64,000 nt of DNA from Streptomyces graminofaciens (GTDB taxonomy: Bacteria; Actinomycetota; Actinomycetes; Streptomycetales; Streptomycetaceae): NCBI RefSeq assembly GCF_030294945.1, contig NZ_AP018448.1, forward strand, positions 8,404,501-8,468,500, given 5' to 3'. Numbering within the stretch: the first letter of the stretch is position 1; each line of letters starts with the position of its first letter. Shown here piece after piece: positions 18,111 to 28,944 of this stretch. Both the position numbers and the translations under genes were made by a program. Under the pieces are notes generated by a model, which was given only the letters and a program-made list of their open reading frames with translations, was not told where the DNA came from and did not search any database.

Positions 18111-19841
18111 TCACCGCGTCTTGCGGGGCTGGCCGTCTTGGCTCGGGGCGGGCGAGGCTACGCGCCCGCTGCCCTTGGCCGCAGCGGGGGTGAGGTCGGG
18201 CATCGCGGTGGCGTCGGCGGGCAGGTCGGCCAGGCGGCGCAGCCGCCACACCAGCACGTCGCTAATCGAACCGGCGCTGCCCAACTCCCGCCGTCCGGCA
18301 GCCTCCATCAGCAGAGTGGCCGGGTCGTGGCCGGCGCTCTCGGTATCGGCGAGGGTGGCCGCCAGGGCGTGCCAGCCTGGCTCGGCCAGGATCTGCTCGG
18401 CCAGCTCCGGCACGGCCGCCCGCAGATGGGCGGCCTGCTTCTGGCGCAGGGGCTGGGACAGGCGATGCCCCCGCTGGTACAGCATGCCCAACGGGACGTT
18501 GGCGGCGGCTTGGTAGGCGATGCGTAGGTGTTCGGCGGCCTCGCGGGCTGCGGCGGCCTGCTGGGCATGGTCCTTCTTCGCATGCCAGTGGGCGGCGGCG
18601 GTGACGAGGAAGAACAGCATGTCGATCGCCATCGCGGTGGTCGCGCCGTCTTCCCCGCGGCCGAGCGCCGGCCCGCTGTAGATCAGGTCGCGGGCGGCCT
18701 TGCGCAGGGCCCGGTCGTGTCCGCGCTCGGCCTGGATGTGGGAGCGGGTTGCCCGCTCGAACGTGAAGGCTGCCGCGCGTAGTTGCTCGCGGGTGTGGGC
18801 GGCTGAGGTCTTGGCGAGCGCGTCCAGGACCTCTCCGGCTGCCGCGATGTGCGCGGCCACCTGGCTGTCCTCACCGTGGTCGATGATCAGCAGAGCTTGC
18901 CATGCTGCGGTGGCAGCACCGCGTCGCACGGCGGCCGGACCGGTCGGCGCTGGGCCGGAGGACTGAGGGGACGGTCCGTTGTCGCTTTGGCCGGAGGGGG
19001 AACTGCCACCGGAGAAGCGTTTGCGGATGCGGGGCAGGGACAGGTCGGGGGAGAGGGTGGAGCCGGCGTAGAACACGGGCTCCTTCTCGCCGTTGCGGTT
19101 GTCCGGGAGGGCGACCTTGTAGCCGAGCAGGTCGCCGGAGGGTGCGACGCGCTTGCGGATCAGTAGGCCGGAGGCGGCCAGCCGGTCGAAAAGCTCCTCC
19201 TCACTCATGACTCCCGCCACAGCCCGCCGTACGGCTTCCCGCAGCTCCTCGCGTGCCGCCTGCTCCCTGCCCTCGCGCTGGGCCTTGTGGCGTTCGGCGC
19301 TGGTGGGGGGCTTGGCGGCGGTGCCGTCCCCGGGCGGCACGCGGCGCAGCCCGTAGTCGACTTCGATACGGCGGCATTCAGCCTGGGCCCGGCGAGCCTC
19401 GTTGTGACGGCGGGGCCGGCGGCCGTCGTCGCGGACCAGGGTGGCGATGATGTGGATGTGGTCGTCGGCGTGGCGGACGGCTGCCCACCGGCAGGCTTGC
19501 TCGTCGCCGTCGGGGGCGATGCCGGTGGCGGCGACCATGCGGCGGGCGATGGCCGCCCAGTCCTCGTCGGACAGGATCGGGTCTTCGGGGGCGGCCCGCA
19601 CCGACAGGTGCCACACGTGCTTCTCGGGGCGCTTGCTGGCGGGCAGGGCGTTGACGGGCTGGTCGAGCAGATGCTCAAGCTGCTCGTAGGTGGCCTTCGG
19701 ATTGCGGCCGGGGTCGGGGGTGAGCGGGTCGAAGGCGGCGACCAGGTGCGGGTCGATGTGCACCTCGTCGGTGCCGGGGCCGTAGAGGTACTTGATGAGC
19801 CCGATCGTCTCGCTGCCGCGCTTGTGGATGCTGGGGATCAC
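18111..19841 (-). CDS. Relaxase (mobilization protein)
   Basis: 576-aa HUH relaxase that would nick oriT and pilot the strand during mobilization. The N-terminus has GLIKYLYGPG (candidate catalytic Tyr), the RPEKHVWHLSVR strand, and the metal-binding HADDHIHIIATLVRDDG (HxxDxH-IH) near residues 120-136. The middle and C-terminal parts are helical, with a Ser/Pro-rich linker near residue 280. GTG 19841 overlaps the mobC stop (GTGA); the frame is open further upstream but that is antisense to or inside mobC. The strong terminator at 18059-18097 follows. Confidence 0.88.
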   Translation of the reverse strand: MIPSIHKRGSETIGLIKYLYGPGTDEVHIDPHLVAAFDPLTPDPGRNPKATYEQLEHLLDQPVNALPASKRPEKHVWHLSVRAAPEDPILSDEDWAAIARRMVAATGIAPDGDEQACRWAAVRHADDHIHIIATLVRDDGRRPRRHNEARRAQAECRRIEVDYGLRRVPPGDGTAAKPPTSAERHKAQREGREQAAREELREAVRRAVAGVMSEEELFDRLAASGLLIRKRVAPSGDLLGYKVALPDNRNGEKEPVFYAGSTLSPDLSLPRIRKRFSGGSSPSGQSDNGPSPQSSGPAPTGPAAVRRGAATAAWQALLIIDHGEDSQVAAHIAAAGEVLDALAKTSAAHTREQLRAAAFTFERATRSHIQAERGHDRALRKAARDLIYSGPALGRGEDGATTAMAIDMLFFLVTAAAHWHAKKDHAQQAAAAREAAEHLRIAYQAAANVPLGMLYQRGHRLSQPLRQKQAAHLRAAVPELAEQILAEPGWHALAATLADTESAGHDPATLLMEAAGRRELGSAGSISDVLVWRLRRLADLPADATAMPDLTPAAAKGSGRVASPAPSQDGQPRKTR

Positions 19842-20458
19842 GCAGGGACACCGCCGTCGCGGTGGGCGAGCAGGGCATCGGCGGCGGCCTCCATACGGCG
19901 GGCGGCGCTGCGGACGGCCTCGGCCGAGGCGTCCAGGTGGGGTGCGTCGGCGCCGGAGTTGAGGGCCTTGGCGACCTGGTTGAACAGGCCGTGGATGCGG
20001 CCCAGGTGGCGGCGGGCGGCGAACAGCTCGTCGATGACCTCGCGTTCGGTGGCGATCTCGGCGGCGGTGCGGGTCAGGTCGCGGGCGGCCTTGTCGACGG
20101 CGTAGGCGAGGAAGGCGGCGTTGGACATCTGGCAGTGGGCGGCGGCATCGGCGAAACGCTTGAACTCGGCGTCGTTCATACGGCAGCTGGGCTGGTGCAG
20201 ACGCTTGCGCGACTTCGGCTGACGCGGGCGCTGACGTCTCTTCGCGAGGGACTCGGCCCGCCAGTCTCCTCCTGGCTGCGGTCCGCCCTCGGTCGCTGCC
20301 TGACGGTCCGGTGCCCCCTGGCGCCGGGCTGTTCCCGCCACCCCTGGGGCGGGAATCCCGGGAGCATTGCTCCCGGTACAACTTGCTGGCGCTGTGGGAC
20401 TGGTGGGCTTCTCGTGCCGCTCGTGGCGGGTGGGGTCCTCGTGGTGCCGGTCGTGCAT
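19838..20458 (-). CDS. MobC-like relaxosome accessory protein
   Basis: 206-aa protein with a basic, low-complexity N-terminal half (to about residue 90) and a C-terminal MobC-like domain: RLHQPSCRMNDAEFKRFADA, SNAAFLAYAVDKAARDL, then a long helix with RRHLGRIHGLFNQVAKALN. The RHH-plus-coiled-coil pattern is that of plasmid MobC proteins, which help relaxases open oriT. ATG 20458 has GGAGAA 8 bases upstream. The palindrome array lies directly upstream and is the natural oriT candidate. Confidence 0.8.
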   Translation of the reverse strand: MHDRHHEDPTRHERHEKPTSPTAPASCTGSNAPGIPAPGVAGTARRQGAPDRQAATEGGPQPGGDWRAESLAKRRQRPRQPKSRKRLHQPSCRMNDAEFKRFADAAAHCQMSNAAFLAYAVDKAARDLTRTAAEIATEREVIDELFAARRHLGRIHGLFNQVAKALNSGADAPHLDASAEAVRSAARRMEAAADALLAHRDGGVPA

Positions 20459-20554: not shown

Positions 20555-20924
20555 GGGGACCGTGCCAGGTTGGGGACCAGAGCGGTTCGTGGTCCTCAAC
20601 CCGCAGCTCAGTAGCCGGGCCCTGCCCGGTCCCCGGCCTTGTGGTTCCGAACCGACTGGGGACCGGTCCCCAGAGAGATCAAGGTGCGGACCGACGGGTC
20701 GTCGAGACGTTCAGGCCGCTGACCTGCGTACAAACTGATCCGGGGACCGGGCCATTGGGACCGGTCCCCGGAATGCGAGACCAGGCGGTGCTGTGGGTGG
20801 GGACGGTCCCCCTGACACCTCGTCAAGGGGACGGTCCCCCTGACGAGCTGTCACGGGGACCGTCCCGCCGAGTTGCGCGGGGACCGTCCCTCAGTCTCCG
20901 AGGTCCCTTGCGGGACCGGTCCCC
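20555..20924. repeat. Array of GGGGAC(C)GGTCCCC palindromes; candidate oriT or control region
   Basis: The 576-bp gap between mobC and the zinc-finger gene holds seven palindromes of one type at 20657-20672, 20757-20769, 20799-20811, 20827-20839, 20855-20866, 20879-20890 and 20912-20924, plus half-sites near 20555, 20572, 20626 and 20741. Core forms are GGGGACCGGTCCCC and GGGGACGGTCCCC. The copy at 20827 lies in a longer inverted repeat (20821-20845, arms beginning CGTCAAGGGGAC). No gene is seen in the gap. Confidence 0.85.
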
Positions 20925-21034: not shown

Positions 21035-21724
21035 TCACGCAGCCTTCTGCCGGGTGAGTTCCGCAGCGGCAAGGTCTACGCGGGTCGGGTGGGGCGTGGC
21101 GCGGGGTGCGTTGCCCCTGGCGCGGCCGTCGAGACTCACGCGCCGGGCGCGGCAGGGCTCGCCCTCGGCGGCGTGGCACCACTGGCACGGAACGCTGAGG
21201 GCGTCGGGGCGTCCCTCGGCGACGGCGGTCTCGCGGGCGGCTCGGGTCGGCCGGTACTGGGCGAGCTCGGCGCGGGCGGCAGGTGGGATGCACGTACCGA
21301 GGGCGCGCAGGCGGTTTTCGAGGTCGGGACTCGGGCCGCCGCTGGTGATCTGCCGGTGGGTCGACGGCGCGGCCGTGCCAGTGGCGACCGAGTGCCGGGC
21401 GGCGAGGAGTTCTGCACGCCAGGCAGCTTCGTCGTCCGGACTGGCGGACGGAGTGGGGTCGGTGTGCCGATCCAGGCGGTCGCGGCGATAGGCCCGCCAT
21501 TTGCGGACGACGTCCACTGGCAGGATCGGGTACGGGGAGTCGAGGACGTGGGTCCGTATCGCCTCGCGGACATCCCAGCCGTGGGCAGTGGTCAGGGGCA
21601 CGTCGCTGAGCAGTTCGTGCCACTGGGCGATCTGGTCGCGGGCCTCGCCGGTGGCGGTCCGGATCGTGCGGGGGTCGAGGCGGCCGATGTAGGCGAGGAC
21701 AGCGGCGGTTTCGCGGGGGTCCAG
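21035..21724 (-). CDS. Zinc-finger protein of the mobile element
   Basis: 229-aa protein. The N-terminal region is helical (DPRETAAVLAYIGRLDPRTI; QWHELLSDVPL; DSPYPILPVDVVRKWRAYR) and the C-terminus has a zinc-knuckle CQWCHAAEGEPCRARR, like the phage and plasmid CPxC-x8-C zinc fingers. A GTG exists at 21601, but coding continues upstream in frame to a TAA at 21733-21731. A CTG at 21724 follows the ribosome-like GGAACGGAG at the 3' end of the previous gene, so a CTG start is proposed. Such proteins sit next to replication genes on Streptomyces integrative elements. Confidence 0.7.
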   Translation of the reverse strand: MDPRETAAVLAYIGRLDPRTIRTATGEARDQIAQWHELLSDVPLTTAHGWDVREAIRTHVLDSPYPILPVDVVRKWRAYRRDRLDRHTDPTPSASPDDEAAWRAELLAARHSVATGTAAPSTHRQITSGGPSPDLENRLRALGTCIPPAARAELAQYRPTRAARETAVAEGRPDALSVPCQWCHAAEGEPCRARRVSLDGRARGNAPRATPHPTRVDLAAAELTRQKAA

Positions 21725-21730
21725 GGTGGG

Positions 21731-22573
21731 TTACTCCGTTCCGTTCGGTTCGTCGAGGGCGGCGAGCAAGGCGGCCATGTGCTCCTCGGAGCGCGTCATG
21801 CCGGGGGCCCTGGTCGGCGTGCCTCCGCCGGGTATGCCGCGCAGATGTCGGCGGCCATGGTCGGCTGGGCGTTCGTTGGTGATCCAGGCGCGCCAGTCAG
21901 CAGCCCAGGCGGCGGCTGGGCGGGGCGGCCATGTGGCCCGGTAGGCACGCCACTTCTCGTCGGCGGCCCGCAGCCCGTGCTCACCGAGCCGGGCCAGATG
22001 CCCCTGTTGCCCCAACCAGGCGTGGGCTTCGTCGTCGACCTGCCACTCGGTGGCTGGGGTGAGGAGTGAGCTGCTGCTCTTACCGTTCACCTTTGGTTCT
22101 CTACTGTTCTGGGGGCCGGAATCCGTGCCTCCTCCGGGCCGGAATCCGCTCCCGCCGGGGGTCGAAATCCGGCCCCGGGGACTGGTATCCGGCCCCCTTT
22201 CGAGCGGGTCGGCAGGGTCGGATTCCGGTCCGGGGGGTGTCGGTATCCGGTCCCCCTGCGGGGTCGGATTCCGGTCCTCGTCGGTGGCTCGTTCGGCGAG
22301 GAACCGGGCGGCGGCCGGGAGTTGGTAGTACGTCTCCCCGCGAGGTCCCTTGCGGCCGTCGAGCTGCACCAGTTCGCCGCTGGCGATCAGCTTGTCGATG
22401 GCGTCCCGTACCGCGGTACGAGACGCGTTCGCCCGCTTCATGAGGGTGGGGACGGATGCGTACGCGACGCAGCGGAGGTCGAGGCACCGGTCGGCGATCA
22501 GGGTGAGGACCATGCGGGCGGTGCCCTTGCTTCGGCTGTGGTCCCACACCCATGCGCGGGCGTCGTGGCTCAT
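21731..22573 (-). CDS. Winged-helix replication-like protein with internal DNA repeats
   Basis: 280-aa protein. The N-terminal domain is a winged helix of the plasmid or phage replication-initiator type: MSHDARAWVWDHSRSKGTAR, MVLTLIADRCLDLRCVAYAS, VPTLMKRANASRTAVRDAID, KLIASGELVQLDG. A Gly/Pro/Asp-rich linker (about residues 100-155) separates it from a C-terminal part with DDEAHAWLGQQGHLARLG and a Trp-rich ADEKWRAYRATWPPRP segment. The linker DNA encodes the CCGGAATCCGG-type repeats. ATG 22573 has GGAG upstream; the frame is open to 22708 without a better start. Likely role: replication or control of the element. Confidence 0.7.
   Translation of the reverse strand: MSHDARAWVWDHSRSKGTARMVLTLIADRCLDLRCVAYASVPTLMKRANASRTAVRDAIDKLIASGELVQLDGRKGPRGETYYQLPAAARFLAERATDEDRNPTPQGDRIPTPPGPESDPADPLERGPDTSPRGRISTPGGSGFRPGGGTDSGPQNSREPKVNGKSSSSLLTPATEWQVDDEAHAWLGQQGHLARLGEHGLRAADEKWRAYRATWPPRPAAAWAADWRAWITNERPADHGRRHLRGIPGGGTPTRAPGMTRSEEHMAALLAALDEPNGTE
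22116..22274. repeat. Seven iteron-like CCGGAATCCGG motifs inside the replication-like gene
   Basis: Copies: CCGGAATCCG 22116-22125 and 22139-22148, CGAAATCCGG 22163-22172, GGTATCCGG 22184-22192, GGATTCCGG 22220-22228, GGTATCCGG 22242-22250, GGATTCCGG 22266-22274. On the coding strand they are read as RNP, RIP, PES, PDT, RIS, GFR and DSG, i.e. in all three codon phases and both orientations, so the DNA word rather than the peptide is conserved. Further copies lie in the hairpin at 22734-22777 and at 22899-22909. Confidence 0.85.
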
Positions 22574-22733
22574 CGGGTTGCGGCTCCTGGGTTCGGGGTG
22601 GGGAGGGGGCGGCACCAGCCCGCTTCGGGGTGGTGCAGGGAAGGGTGCGGCGTGGCGTTCCCGGTCTGGTGGCGCCGACGAGGGCCGCAGGCGGGTGCAC
22701 GAGGGCATCCGGTCCAGGCCATCGATTACCGAG

Positions 22734-22777
22734 CTTGCTCAGGCGCCCGGAATCAGGATTCCGGGCGCCTGAGCAAG
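22734..22777. repeat. Perfect 21-bp inverted repeat with 2-base loop
   Basis: The arms 22734-22754 and 22757-22777 are perfectly complementary around AG. The inner part reads CCGGAATC-AG-GATTCCGG, so it contains the same word as the iterons. It lies in the 751-bp non-coding gap 22574-23324 upstream of the replication-like gene. It could be a cruciform at an origin, a single-strand initiation site or a terminator. Confidence 0.85.
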
Positions 22778-22898
22778 ACAGCCACACCCACCCCGGACAA
22801 GTCCAGCATTCCGTGGAGAAAGCAAGCAGCCCACGGCGAACACATCATGAGTGGGGTTCAAAAACAGTAAGCCCGGATTGGCGGTTGACGAAATAGTG

Positions 22899-22909
22899 CC
22901 GGAATCCGG
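22899..22909. promoter_or_regulatory. CCGGAATCCGG site in a possible promoter
   Basis: An isolated copy of the iteron word, CCGGAATCCGG, lies between TTGACG (22885-22890) and TAGGTC (22910-22915), a possible but long-spaced promoter pointing towards xis-int. If real, the protein that binds the iterons would repress this promoter. This is inference only. Confidence 0.35.
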
Positions 22910-23153
22910 TAGGTCGAACCGGGACAACTCGTAACCCTTCGGTACTCGCGCTGTGGCGCCCCGTCCGCATTGTGGAACACCGTCTCTGGGCAGGTCAGGA
23001 GGCTCGGCAGTGCTGGCGCGTTCACCGGTGTAGCTGACCTGAAGTGCCGCTGTCGTCAATCCGGGATTCCGTGCTGCGTTCAGCTGCGTCCCGTTACTTT
23101 CGTGACGACAAGCCCGGCAAATCGAACAATAGGGGCAGGGAATATAGCATCAC

Positions 23154-23178
23154 ATCGCCGGTTTGCGAAACCGGCGAT
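23154..23178. repeat. 11-bp inverted repeat upstream of xis
   Basis: ATCGCCGGTTT-GCG-AAACCGGCGAT: perfect 11-bp arms with a 3-base spacer, 147 bp upstream of the excisionase-like gene. It is suited to be an operator for xis-int expression or a short hairpin. Confidence 0.65.
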
Positions 23179-23324
23179 TCTCCGGAGAGTTGTGGTGCCA
23201 ATTGAGGCTGATCCCACCCGCGGATCTACGTCGCTATTGGCTTGCAGCTCCGCAATTCCGCCTGCCTTTCGCACCGTCCCGGAGCAAGCGCAGGACTCCC
23301 CGCTCCCTGCCCAAGGAACATCGC

Positions 23325-23525
23325 TTGACGTCCCAGTCCCGCCGTCCCACCGACAAGCTCACGGTCGACGAGTTCTGCGCCGACCTCCGCATCTCCCGCT
23401 CCACGTTCTATGACTGGCGCAAGAAGGGCCGCGCCCCGCGCTGCATACGCATCCCCAACGGCGCCCTGCGCATCCGCCGCAGTGACTACGAGAACTGGCT
23501 CACCGACTGCGAGGCCAACGTGTGA
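23325..23525 (+). CDS. xis: Excisionase-like helix-turn-helix protein
   Basis: 66-aa basic MerR/AlpA-type DNA-binding protein: DKLTVDEFCADLRISRSTFY (helix-turn-helix), DWRKKGRAPRCIRIPNGALR (wing), IRRSDYENWL (last helix). Such proteins next to integrases act as excisionases. The start is taken as TTG 23325 with AAGGAAC upstream; an in-frame GTG at 23163 would add 54 residues that look non-coding. It overlaps the integrase start by 4 bp (GTGA). Confidence 0.82.
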   Translation: MTSQSRRPTDKLTVDEFCADLRISRSTFYDWRKKGRAPRCIRIPNGALRIRRSDYENWLTDCEANV

Positions 23526-25048
23526 GCAGCCGGTCCTTCAAGGTCCGCTTCTACGACACGGAGGTCTACAAGGGAAAGCGCAAGACCACCTACACCGTCC
23601 GCTGGTCGGTCAACGGCAACCGCCGAGGCCGAAGCTTCGAGACGAGCGCACTCGCGGAATCGTTTCGCGCGACACTGCGCGTCGCTGCCAATAACGGCGA
23701 ACCGTTCGACGTGGACACCGGACTACCGGTCTCCCAGGTCGCGCCGGCGGCCGAACTCACCTGGTACGAGTTCGCCCTCCAATACATCGACGCGAAGTGG
23801 CCCCGTATCTCGGCGAACAACCGCAAGAACACGGCCAAGGCCCTCACCAAGGCCACACTCGCTCTCCTGCGCGCCGAACTCCCCGGCCGCTTCGACCCGG
23901 TCGACGTGCGCCGGGCCTTGCGCGAGTACGCCTTCAACAATCTGAGGCGCGACGAGGCCCCACCCGAGGTCCGCACGATCCTGTCCTGGATCGGCCGCAA
24001 CTCCCTTCCCATGACGGCTTGGGAGGACACGAGGCACCTCGACGCGGTCCTGCGAGCGCTCGACACCCTCCTGGACGGCACCCCGGCCGCCGCCAGCTCG
24101 GTCAGACGTGAGCGGCGGATCCTGAACGTGGCGATCAAGTACGCCGTCCGCCAGAAGAACCTCACCGACAACCCGTTGCCCACGGGCAAGGACGAGGACG
24201 CGGCGCCCAGGGTCGCCGAGGCCGTCGACAAGCGCTCCCTGCTCAACCCCGGCCAAGTCGCCGCAGTTCTTGCCTGGATCTACGCCCGCCCCCGCACCGG
24301 CCACCGACTCCACGCGTTCTTCGCCACCCTCTACTACGCAGGTCTGCGCCCCGAGGAGGCCGTCGCGCTGCGGGTCGGCGATGCCACGCTGCCCGCCGAG
24401 GGCTGGGGCCAGCTGCTCGTCCACACCGCCGAACCCGAGGTCGGCAGCCAGTGGACCGACGACGGCCAGGTCCATGAGACCCGCCACCTCAAGGGCCGCG
24501 CCGAAGGCGACACCCGCCCCGTCCCCGTCCACCCCGCCCTGGTCGCCACCCTGCGAGACCTGATCGAGGCGGACGGCCTGAAGCCCGGCGGCCTCCTCTT
24601 CCCCGGGGAGAAGGGCGGACTGCTGGCCGGGTCGGTCTTCCGGCGCGCCTGGAACAAGGCCCGTGCAGCGGTCCTGCCCGAGCACGAGTACAACTCGCCG
24701 ACCGGCAAGCGCGTGTACGACCTGCGGCACACCTGCCTGACCACCTGGCTGAACAACGGCGTCCCGCCGGCCCAGGTCGCCGAGTGGGCCGGCAACAGCG
24801 TGCCGGTCCTGCTTGCCACGTATGCCCGCTGCGTCACAGGCCAGCTGGCCGCGCTCCAGGAGCGCATCGAAGGTCCTCAGCGGCTCCCGCCGGTATCTCC
24901 TGAGCAGAGAGACCGAACCCAGAACTTCGGGAGGTTTTCGGGAAGAACATCCGCCAAGAGCCGTGTTGAACCGGTCCCAACCGGACTGCCACCCTCGACA
25001 CCAGGGAGTCGGCCCGGCCTTGGGGTACCGCGAAATCGCACCCGCTGA
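23522..25048 (+). CDS. int: Tyrosine recombinase / integrase
   Basis: 508-aa phage-type integrase. The N-terminal part has an arm-binding domain (KTTYTVRWSVNGNRRGRSFE) and a SAM-like core-binding domain. The catalytic domain shows the first Arg in YYAGLRPEEAVALRVGD, HxxR in YDLRHTCLTTWL, AGNSVPVLLATYARC with the nucleophile Tyr, and an Asn where many homologues have a second His. GTG 23522 overlaps xis. The last 36 codons include the 109-bp stretch duplicated near the tRNA-Arg gene. It should insert the element at an attachment site, probably the tRNA. Confidence 0.92.
   Translation: MSSRSFKVRFYDTEVYKGKRKTTYTVRWSVNGNRRGRSFETSALAESFRATLRVAANNGEPFDVDTGLPVSQVAPAAELTWYEFALQYIDAKWPRISANNRKNTAKALTKATLALLRAELPGRFDPVDVRRALREYAFNNLRRDEAPPEVRTILSWIGRNSLPMTAWEDTRHLDAVLRALDTLLDGTPAAASSVRRERRILNVAIKYAVRQKNLTDNPLPTGKDEDAAPRVAEAVDKRSLLNPGQVAAVLAWIYARPRTGHRLHAFFATLYYAGLRPEEAVALRVGDATLPAEGWGQLLVHTAEPEVGSQWTDDGQVHETRHLKGRAEGDTRPVPVHPALVATLRDLIEADGLKPGGLLFPGEKGGLLAGSVFRRAWNKARAAVLPEHEYNSPTGKRVYDLRHTCLTTWLNNGVPPAQVAEWAGNSVPVLLATYARCVTGQLAALQERIEGPQRLPPVSPEQRDRTQNFGRFSGRTSAKSRVEPVPTGLPPSTPGSRPGLGVPRNRTR
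24904..25012 (+). repeat. Direct repeat copy A (integrase 3' end)
   Basis: A 109-bp stretch in the 3' end of int. It matches 31375-31482 at about 85% by eye with one 1-base gap; shared blocks include GTTTTCGGGAAGAACA, CAACCGGACTGCC and CAGGGAGTCGG. It probably reflects conserved attachment-site flanks of related elements. Confidence 0.8.
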
Positions 25049-25566: not shown

Positions 25567-26819
25567 GTGCTCAGCGTAGTCACCGACGACGGCTCCACCG
25601 ACTCCGGATCCTTGATCGACGAGATCGTCCGGGAGGGTGCCCGGCGCATGCTCGCCGCCGCGCTGGAGGCGGAAGTCAACCAGTACATAGCTGAGTTGGC
25701 GGCCGAGACCGACGAGACGGGCCGGCGACTGGTCGTGCGCAACGGCCGCCACCGTCCCCGGACCGTGGTCACGGCGGCCGGGCCGGTCGAGGTCACCGCG
25801 CCGCGGTGAACGACCGGCGCGTCGACGAGGCCACCGGGGAGCGCAAGCGGTTCTCCTCGAAGATCCTCGCGCCTTGGTGCCGCAAGTCCCCGAAGATCTC
25901 CGAGGTCCTGCCGCTGCTCTATCTCCACGGGCTGTCCTCCGGGGACTTCGTGCCCGCGCTCGAGCAGTTCCTCGGCGGCACGGCCGGACTGTCCCCGGCC
26001 ACGGTGACCCGGCTGACACGCCAGTGGCAGGACGACCACGCCGCCTTCCAGACCCGCGACCTGTCCGACCGCGACTTCGTCTACGTGTGGGCCGACGGCG
26101 TCCACCCCAAGGTCCGGCTCGGCCAGGCACACTCCTGCGTCCTGGTCCTGCTCGGCGTCCGGCTGGACGGCACCAAGGAGCTGATCGCGCTGGCCGAGGG
26201 GCTGCGGGAGTCCACGGAGTCGTGGGCCGACCTGCTGCGCGACTGCCGCCGACGCGGCATGCGCGACCCCGAACTCGTCGTCGGGGACGGCGCGATGGGA
26301 TTGTGGAGGGCACTGGCCGAGGTGTTCCCCGCCGCCCGGCACCAGAGGTGCTGGGTCCACAAAAGCAAAAATGTCATGAACACGCTGCCTAAGTCCGCGC
26401 AACCCGGCGCACTCAAGGCCCTCCAGGAGATCTACAACGCCGAGGACCGCGACCACGCGGACAAGGCGATCGAGGCGTTCGCCAAGGCCTACGGCGCGAA
26501 GTGGCCGAAGGCCGTCGCGAAGATCACCGACGACCGCGACGAACTACTCGCCTTCTACGCGTTTCCCGCGGAGCACTGGATCCATCTGCGCACGACCAAC
26601 CCCATCGAGTCGACCTTCTCCACGGTCAAGCTCCGGACCAAGGTCACCCGCGGCGCCGGCAGCCCGGCCGCGGCGCTCGCCATGGTGTTCAAGCTCGTCG
26701 AGTCCGCCCAGGAACGCTGGCGCGCGATCACCGGCGCCCACCTCGTCGCCCTGGTCCGAGCGGGTGCGAGCTTCACGAACGGACAACTCAGCGAGGGGGA
26801 GGGGGAACAGGCCGCATGA
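25567..26819 (+). pseudogene. IS256-family transposase, split by a -1 frameshift
   Basis: Two overlapping frames together make a full-size transposase of about 417 residues. Part one, 25567-25809 (GTG start, GGAAGG upstream), holds the N-terminal region (SLIDEIVREGARRMLAAALE, AEVNQYIAELA) and stops after VEVTAPR. Part two, 25806-26819, starts GTG in a GTGA overlap and holds the DDE domain: VYVWADGVHPKVR, LVVGDGAMGLWRAL, HQRCWVHKSKNVMNTLP, NPIESTFSTVKLRTKVTRGA. Loss of one G in the CGCGG(G)TGAAC run explains the split. Coupled translation of two parts is possible, but most likely it is inactive. Confidence 0.85.
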
Positions 26820-28440: not shown

Positions 28441-28944
28441 TCAGTCCACCTCCCGACCGATGGCGTTGGTCAGCCGACGCGCCGCGTCGAACATGGCGCC
28501 CATGGCCTTCACTGTGAGCGTCTGATGCTCGGGGAGGCTGATCGCGGTTGTGACGCTGCCATTGGCCTTCCCCCTGCCCTGTAAGGACGCCCAGTACCCA
28601 TGACAGGCCAGGACGATCGACTCCGGCTGATGAGTCACCCAACGACCGATGTCCGGAGGGACTATCAGTAAGGCAAGGTGGCCAGGGGCCGAGCGTTCCG
28701 GGTTTCGCAGCTTGTCGTACGTCTCGACGTCGAGGTCGAAGCTGTAGCCACCTCGAACGATGCGCGGGCTCTGTGTGCATTTGAGCTGAATGTCGACCAT
28801 GAGACCGTGCGAACGCAAGGTGACGTCGACACCGTCTTTGTCGACGTTCCAGTCGCAGATCGTGTAACCGCCCTGGGTGGCAAGGACATGTACGTAAGCA
28901 CGGCTGACTTGCTCCTTCTGCCAGCTCGTCGCCTCTGCAGCCAC
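28441..28944 (-). CDS. DUF4365 (PD-(D/E)XK nuclease-like) protein
   Basis: 167-aa protein. TQGGYTICDWNVDKDGVDVT followed by GLMVDIQLKCTQSPRI gives the D-x(n)-(E/Q)xK layout of DUF4365, a restriction-nuclease-like fold (here D...QLK). The later strands include HLALLIVPPDIGRWV and SIVLACHGYWASLQG, also usual in DUF4365. GTG 28944 has a strong GGGGAGG upstream. DUF4365 proteins are frequent in defence islands and on mobile elements. Nuclease activity is inferred from fold resemblance only. Confidence 0.75.
   Translation of the reverse strand: MAAEATSWQKEQVSRAYVHVLATQGGYTICDWNVDKDGVDVTLRSHGLMVDIQLKCTQSPRIVRGGYSFDLDVETYDKLRNPERSAPGHLALLIVPPDIGRWVTHQPESIVLACHGYWASLQGRGKANGSVTTAISLPEHQTLTVKAMGAMFDAARRLTNAIGREVD

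Follow-up and report, generated by a model that had tools for sequence, protein, structure and literature searches.

The window analysed here, a stretch of 64,000 nucleotides, belongs to a Streptomyces genome of 11.6 Mb that is held on a single contig. Judged from its integrase, Xis-like and relaxase genes, the window probably carries an integrative mobilizable element (IME), within which a two-gene module lies between the mobilization genes and the integration genes:

18111..20381, minus strand, relaxase (MobA/VirD2-like) ORF (Relaxase 7.6e-10)
19838..20458, minus strand, MobC/NikA-like mobilization gene (NikA-like 0.00039, under the gathering score)
21035..21724, minus strand, P-like by its place as second gene of the module (match to phrog_8924 and, C-terminally, to a zinc finger; start codon uncertain)
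21731..22573, minus strand, O-like replication initiator gene, 280 aa (assigned from PHROG matches and the start positions of homologues)
22271..22573, minus strand, predicted winged-helix DNA-binding domain of the O-like gene, aa 1-101
23163..23525, plus strand, excisionase-like HTH gene (HTH_17, excisionase PHROG; the true start may be further in)
23522..25048, plus strand, tyrosine integrase (Phage_integrase 4.6e-07)

At the 29 loci where homologues lie in genomes of named species, the fetched DNA contained a relaxase in 25 cases and MobC in 21. The att repeats of the element were looked for and not found. An ORF that adjoins the integrase (25806-26819) we take, by eye, to be like an IS256-type transposase. 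Further along, a DUF4365 protein (28441-28944; 2.3e-12) lies beside a 378-aa protein with no Pfam match at 0.01, and the two are possibly cargo of the element.

The longest ORF of the O-like gene covers 21731-22708 on the minus strand. Its start codon is likely the ATG at 22573, which has AGGAG just 5' of it and was taken as the start because homologues begin at the same position. The protein matched the replication initiation families phrog_6643 (5.7e-26), phrog_1032 (5.3e-14) and, over its N-terminal part, the O-like phrog_391 (6.3e-11). The Pfam family Phage_rep_O (PF04492), with which lambda O scores 5.7e-36, gave no match to it at E values up to 1. In an AlphaFold2 model based on 25 sequences, residues 1-101 were predicted with confidence as a winged helix, followed by a disordered linker (residues 102-169), which is rich in Gly and Pro, and a helical part (residues 170 to 232, approximately). 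Structure comparison fitted a winged helix and nothing more specific. The gene product is probably a protein that starts replication of the mobile element.

The second gene accompanies the O-like gene closely. The two were adjacent in 56 of 61 loci after removal of repeats from the same place (60 of 65 with these repeats counted), and the second gene was missing beside the O-like gene in L012, L023, L032, L052 and L058. The same two-gene module is found in the phages SV1, Picard, ToastyFinz, SoJo and Eklok, and in one record, that of SoJo, the homologue of the second gene is annotated as a helicase loader. The second genes of the window and of the phages match phrog_8924, a family of unknown function, while lambda P matches phrog_109, and profile searches gave no match of the second gene to the lambda P-like loader family. 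From its position and the single annotation in SoJo, we infer a loader role for the second gene.

The original prediction, made from the letters of the window, was that a short word recurs within the coding DNA of the O-like gene and is read on the minus strand as RNP, RIP, PES, PDT, RIS, GFR and DSG, in all three codon phases. This reading was confirmed. With the word defined as CCGGAWTCCGG and up to 2 mismatches allowed, seven words lie within 22116-22274, four with 1 mismatch, three with 2, and none an exact copy:

22264..22274, minus strand, iteron word 1 (DRNPT), 1 mismatch
22240..22250, minus strand, iteron word 2 (DRIPT), 2 mismatches
22218..22228, minus strand, iteron word 3 (PESDP), 1 mismatch
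22182..22192, minus strand, iteron word 4 (PDTSP), 2 mismatches
22162..22172, minus strand, iteron word 5 (GRIST), 2 mismatches
22139..22149, minus strand, iteron word 6 (SGFRP), 1 mismatch
22116..22126, minus strand, iteron word 7 (TDSGP), 1 mismatch, adjoining the low-GC stretch described below

In the direction of transcription the words are spaced by 24, 22, 36, 20, 23 and 23 bp, and it is this spacing itself that shifts the codon phase and so produces three phases. Since the word is a near-palindrome, the orientation of the copies means little. Seven words in the gene far exceeded the expectation from synonymous shuffles (1.5), from codon draws (1.2) and from permutations of the linker codons (0.6); in each case none of 2000 randomisations reached 7. 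Over the whole 64 kb, CCGGAATCCGG with up to 2 mismatches was found 61 times against 46.5 expected, a number reached by 4 of 100 shuffles. This window-wide enrichment is weak, so it is the clustering of the words that counts. Exact words did not cluster when the whole genome was scanned: 24 copies are scattered over its 11.6 Mb, and the single one in the element is a site upstream of the gene, outside it. The cluster appears only when mismatches are allowed.

The words encode residues 100-153 and the low-GC stretch residues 155-169, which places both almost wholly inside the disordered segment of the protein. This position also suits another account, that the repeats are nothing more than a low-complexity peptide grown by slippage and encoded by DNA that has no function of its own. 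The linker is indeed disordered and Gly/Pro-rich, and in some distant members of the family, L032 and the SV1-like phages, one peptide recurs in a single phase.

Homologues were taken from 29 loci in the genomes of named species, from annotated records (phage and plasmid homologues) and from a search of 199 genomes, which gave 30 matches in 22 genomes, 3 of the 30 being in the host genome itself. In the 32 close homologues, the window gene included, words with at most 1 mismatch numbered 64, compared with 10.7 in synonymous shuffles (maximum of 200 shuffles, 19), and words with at most 2 mismatches numbered 169, compared with 47.9 (maximum of 200, 62). The excess does not depend on the gene in which the word was noticed: with that gene removed, the other 31 still gave 60 words at 1 mismatch or fewer, where 10.2 were expected from shuffling and the highest of 30 shuffles had 17. 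Genes shorter than 250 aa were left out of this 32-homologue count and of the codon-position analyses. Two genes with a broken frame (L028 and L029) were left out of the word counts, the codon-position analyses and the GC-minimum count given below.

A second test presupposes no word. It counts similar 15-mers that lie 16-60 bp apart and compares the count with that in synonymous shuffles. When codons were shuffled within the linker, at most 2 of 200 shuffles reached the observed value in all 60 genes, a set that includes the window gene as well as near relatives (seven pairs are more than 90% alike in the linker). With synonymous shuffles of the whole gene the same held for 58 of the 60, the exceptions being L051 (13/200) and L061 (5/200), and for 1 of 60 when residues 1-85 served as a control region. 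Lambda O, the positive control, behaved like the linkers, with 0 of 200 within-linker shuffles reaching the observed value. Left out of the pair tests and of the GC-minimum count were L009 (the same gene as L034), L066 (the same place as L042), L056 and L059 (the same places as L049 and L055), and L053 and L058 (weak, with no usable linker). A free search for 11-mers in each gene was dropped in favour of the pair test, being too weak in GC-rich DNA; it gave 0 of 60 shuffles in just 10 of 27 genes and failed clearly in L036 (51/60), L051 (57/60) and L065 (16/60).

The constraint can also be seen codon position by codon position. In the 32 close homologues the fraction of the majority base at positions 1, 2 and 3 was 0.86, 0.86 and 0.89 in the words, 0.89, 0.83 and 0.72 in the spacers and 0.91, 0.92 and 0.82 in the rest of the gene. 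The third position is therefore the best conserved inside the words and the least conserved in the spacers, as expected where it is the DNA, rather than the peptide, that is preserved. The comparison of words with the rest of the gene gave p = 0.0015, and that of words with spacers p = 0.16, which is not significant. A coarser scan of synonymous identity, assessed by circular shifts along the gene, was significant only for the low-GC stretch (0 of 269 shifts reached the observed value); linker and low-GC stretch together gave 10/269, and for the linker alone the synonymous excess was not unusual (35/269).

DNA-level selection acts on the linker-coding repeats. That selection would be found on the DNA had been proposed from the window alone, with an alignment of homologues as the suggested check; in the homologues the repeats exceed the synonymous expectation, both in the close relatives and in 60 of 60 linkers, and the third positions within words are constrained. 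The third-position constraint and the within-linker shuffle test largely refute slippage as the source of the repeats, the other synonymous-shuffle controls also speak against it, and the words of the two close clades occupy codon phases 0, 1 and 2 in the numbers 80/27/63 and 27/10/20 (L029 and L036 are absent from the clade-A list of this count). We consider a purely peptide-driven origin of the repeats very improbable.

The argument from three phases is not valid everywhere. A single phase accounts for 20 of 24 words in the SV1-like phages and for 4 of 4 in L032, and in these members peptide duplication may have helped. The words themselves also vary between clades. The second clade has words such as CCGGAAACCGG, set mostly 16, 20 and 23 bp apart; GTCAGAWTCTGAC is found in a group of three genes, B2, and longer palindromes occur in distant members. 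Words for the clades besides A were picked by eye from the same genes, so that these phase counts are descriptive. The B1 word is one base apart from the A word, and both are enriched in both clades. In the three B2 genes, the A word was found 0 times at 1 mismatch, while GTCAGAWTCTGAC with at most 2 mismatches was found 13 times against 3.0 expected. As GTCAGAWTCTGAC is enriched in clade A too (29 against 3.2, in 31 genes), the switch of word is evident one way but not the other. At least 2 of the 35 loci in the close clade, L028 and L029, show a break in the reading frame inside the array, either genuine or a sequencing error, yet retain words and low-GC stretch. In L035 the frame stays open up to 400 aa, and in some other loci the match ends at residue 263-306, so that further frame changes 3' of the array are possible.

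Directly beyond the array lies the stretch already mentioned:

22067..22111, minus strand, low-GC (49%), purine-rich, codon-constrained stretch CAGAAC...AGCAGC, a candidate DNA unwinding element (identified by GC minimum, AGA/GGT codon bias and synonymous identity)

This stretch (CAGAACAGTAGAGAACC...GGTAAGAGCAGCAGC) begins four bases 3' of the last word, and across the close homologues its synonymous codons are mostly fixed or nearly so. The choice of codons is striking in the 32 close homologues: Arg is encoded by AGA in 44 of 48 cases within the stretch, compared with 6 of 855 elsewhere in the gene, and Gly by GGT in 38 of 39 cases, compared with 63 of 744 elsewhere. In all 49 genes that carry the CAGAAC motif, the stretch is where GC, taken over 45 bp, falls to its lowest in the gene; the motif is absent from 9 of the 58 genes examined, among them all five homologues from phage records. 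The purine maximum fell on the stretch in 5 of 6 genes inspected, and in the window gene the stretch is 71% purine. In absolute terms the drop is mild, 49% GC in the window gene against 24% GC in the corresponding tract of lambda. As a candidate unwinding element, the low-GC stretch, which the original prediction had not mentioned, is the strongest addition to the evidence that favours an origin at this site.

An origin inside the initiator gene is an arrangement of a known kind. The ori of phage lambda lies inside gene O and contains iterons and an AT-rich tract, as described in passages of PMC7466680 and PMC3349717. The four annotated iterons of lambda O begin at offsets 348, 368, 392 and 415, with spacings of 20, 24 and 23 and in codon phases 0, 2, 2 and 1. 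With the very next base after the last iteron, offset 433, the GC minimum of lambda O begins, and purines make up 76% of this tract. In both lambda O and the window gene, near-palindromic words in three codon phases stand in the middle of the gene with a low-GC, purine-rich tract directly 3' of them, the order in the direction of transcription being words, then tract. The array occupies codons 116-144 of 299 in lambda and 100-153 of 280 in the window gene. The three-phase reading is therefore shared with lambda, and it follows from a spacing set by the helix. The next gene in lambda is the helicase-loader gene P; beside the window gene, its place is taken by the phrog_8924 gene. The differences are also clear. 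Lambda has four words, where the window gene has seven, of an unrelated sequence, and a tract far more AT-rich; the second gene of the window matches phrog_8924 and a zinc finger, not the lambda P family. The window initiator, unlike lambda O, lies on a probable mobilizable element and falls outside Phage_rep_O. Phrog_391 matches lambda O (2.7e-39) over the C-terminal part of that protein, whereas it matches the window protein over its N-terminal part.

Other systems resemble the window gene to different degrees. The Streptomyces phages SV1, Picard, ToastyFinz, SoJo and Eklok encode a homologous protein (32-38% identity over the N-terminal part), with the same next gene and with DNA repeats in the linker, as in the window; they differ in being phage genomes, in having words in one or two phases and in lacking the CAGAAC motif. 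In Bacillus phage SPP1, according to the passage of PMC6316719 on its origins, oriL lies within gene 38, so that direct repeats and an AT-rich unwinding element are found in the origin-binding protein's own gene, and the helicase loader gp39 acts with the gene 38 protein. According to the same source, SPP1 differs in having a further origin, oriR, and in encoding a DnaB-type helicase itself; the likeness considered here is one of layout. RepA of the mycobacteriophages Miko and Rachaly is likewise an initiator with an HTH, and its authors, with reference to lambda, suspect that an origin lies either within repA or upstream of it; in the region that they single out they saw no repeated motifs (PMC7157519), and the likeness here is one of description. 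Judging by title or the start of the abstract, none of the literature matches listed describes an origin in this Streptomyces family.

Copies of the word are also found upstream of the gene:

22734..22777, no strand assigned, 44-bp perfect inverted repeat containing two words, not found in the other 34 upstream regions of the close clade
22899..22909, no strand assigned, exact CCGGAATCCGG at -336, 5' of the gene, the only exact copy in the element

The inverted repeat has 21-bp arms, holds two words with 1 mismatch each and stands just after a conserved upstream block. It had been proposed that the word recurs upstream, in this hairpin and in a possible promoter; the copies are there, the exact one at 22899 and two in the hairpin, but their conservation was not supported. 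The hairpin was considered as a shared part of the system and rejected, as it occurs in 1 of 35 close-clade upstream regions, that of the window. In the other 34, a search of 700 bp each (arms of at least 11, loops up to 10) found, as the longest inverted repeats, six whose arms measured 11-13, and the word was in none of them. A copy of the word with 1 mismatch was found in 16 of 34 other loci, displaced to between -484 and -584 from the start codon and in different surroundings. Compared with the host genome, the hairpin segment hit its own opposite strand, and a portion of its flank hit the paralogous locus. A search for a terminator-like site at 22560-23350 found none. At about 23150-23180, near the divergent promoter region, lies a ATCGCCGGTTTGCGAAACCGGCGAT inverted repeat, and a similar repeat with 11-bp arms is found 388-559 bp 5' of the O-like gene in L006, L008, L016, L023 and L028.

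These upstream copies bear on the role of the words, which could be operator or titration sites, at which the protein blocks its own transcription or surplus initiator is soaked up, while the true origin lies elsewhere. The exact word at 22899 and the word-bearing hairpin both sit where such control might be exerted, and iteron titration and handcuffing are discussed for lambda in a passage of PMC3349717. Operators, however, are normally found at the promoter, and the hairpin is absent from the other 34 related upstream regions. Control of this kind would also leave two things unexplained: the conserved low-GC stretch of rare codons at the end of the array and the full match to lambda ori. We regard it as unlikely that the words are operator or titration sites and the origin lies elsewhere.

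A further array lies between the P-like gene and MobC. At 20555-20924, the near-palindrome GGGGACSGTCCCC has 8 non-overlapping matches with at most 2 mismatches, and repeats of this kind were seen in 5 of 5 regions examined. Of the 35 loci in the close clade, among which L009 and L034 are the same gene, 20 had at least 4 non-overlapping matches within 600 bp. So dense an array might itself be the origin, with the intragenic words an older remnant or a secondary site. Fewer than 4 matches within 600 bp were present in the remaining 15 of the 35, however, and even 2 within 600 bp were found in none of the 31 other loci (second clade, distant members and phages), where flanks are mostly short and most second-clade loci extend to only 3-4 kb. 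Intragenic repeats, on the other hand, are present in 60 of 60 O-like genes. With MobC and the relaxase as neighbours, the array is well placed for an oriT or for binding of MobC, both of them possible roles, and it may serve transfer. We judge it slightly less likely to be the origin than the intragenic words are to be operators.

The reading we prefer is that the O-like gene encodes the replication initiator of the integrative mobilizable element and that the origin of the element lies inside this gene, to which we assign a probability of roughly 0.8. An intragenic origin was one of two possibilities raised by the original prediction, and it is now supported by the matches to phage initiator profiles, the DNA-level selection on repeats placed in the linker, the conserved low-GC stretch, a module shared by phages and the match to the layout of lambda ori. 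Self-titration, the other possibility, may occur but found no support here. What the comparison supports is a lambda-type intragenic origin, of a known kind, carried by Streptomyces mobile elements whose initiator belongs to a different family.

Replication from such an origin might proceed as follows. After excision of the element, the winged-helix domain would bind the near-palindromic words, probably as a dimer; these recur in the linker-coding DNA roughly every two helical turns. The complex so formed would melt the adjoining low-GC, purine-rich stretch. Host helicase would be loaded at the melted stretch, aided by the product of the P-like next gene, and the excised element would then replicate from the intragenic origin. 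The words would fall in all three codon phases because they are spaced by the turns of the DNA helix (20-24 bp) rather than by codons, and the disordered linker peptide would tolerate whatever the DNA dictates.

To our knowledge, few cases of IME replication are known. In the part of a 2017 review that concerns it, the replication of excised IMEs is said never to have been studied (PMC5704250), and a 2020 paper addresses, by its title, SGI1 replication (PMC7433901). The O-like gene offers a concrete, testable candidate for the origin of the Streptomyces mobile elements and phages in this family. If high-GC Gram-positive elements, whose initiators belong to another family, do share the lambda arrangement, the intragenic origin would be either ancient or repeatedly favoured. 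The gene would also be a clean natural case, as is lambda itself, of a DNA-level function that dictates a disordered peptide in three codon phases. More tentatively, and with the odds somewhat against it, origin and initiator may co-evolve in one coding sequence across the actinobacterial family, the spacing and layout staying fixed while the word is exchanged (CCGGAWTCCGG, GTCAGAWTCTGAC or longer palindromes) and the linker being the translation of the word. If this is true, co-evolution of origin and initiator would make separate incompatibility groups, and the specificity of an initiator for its iterons could be read from sequence alone.
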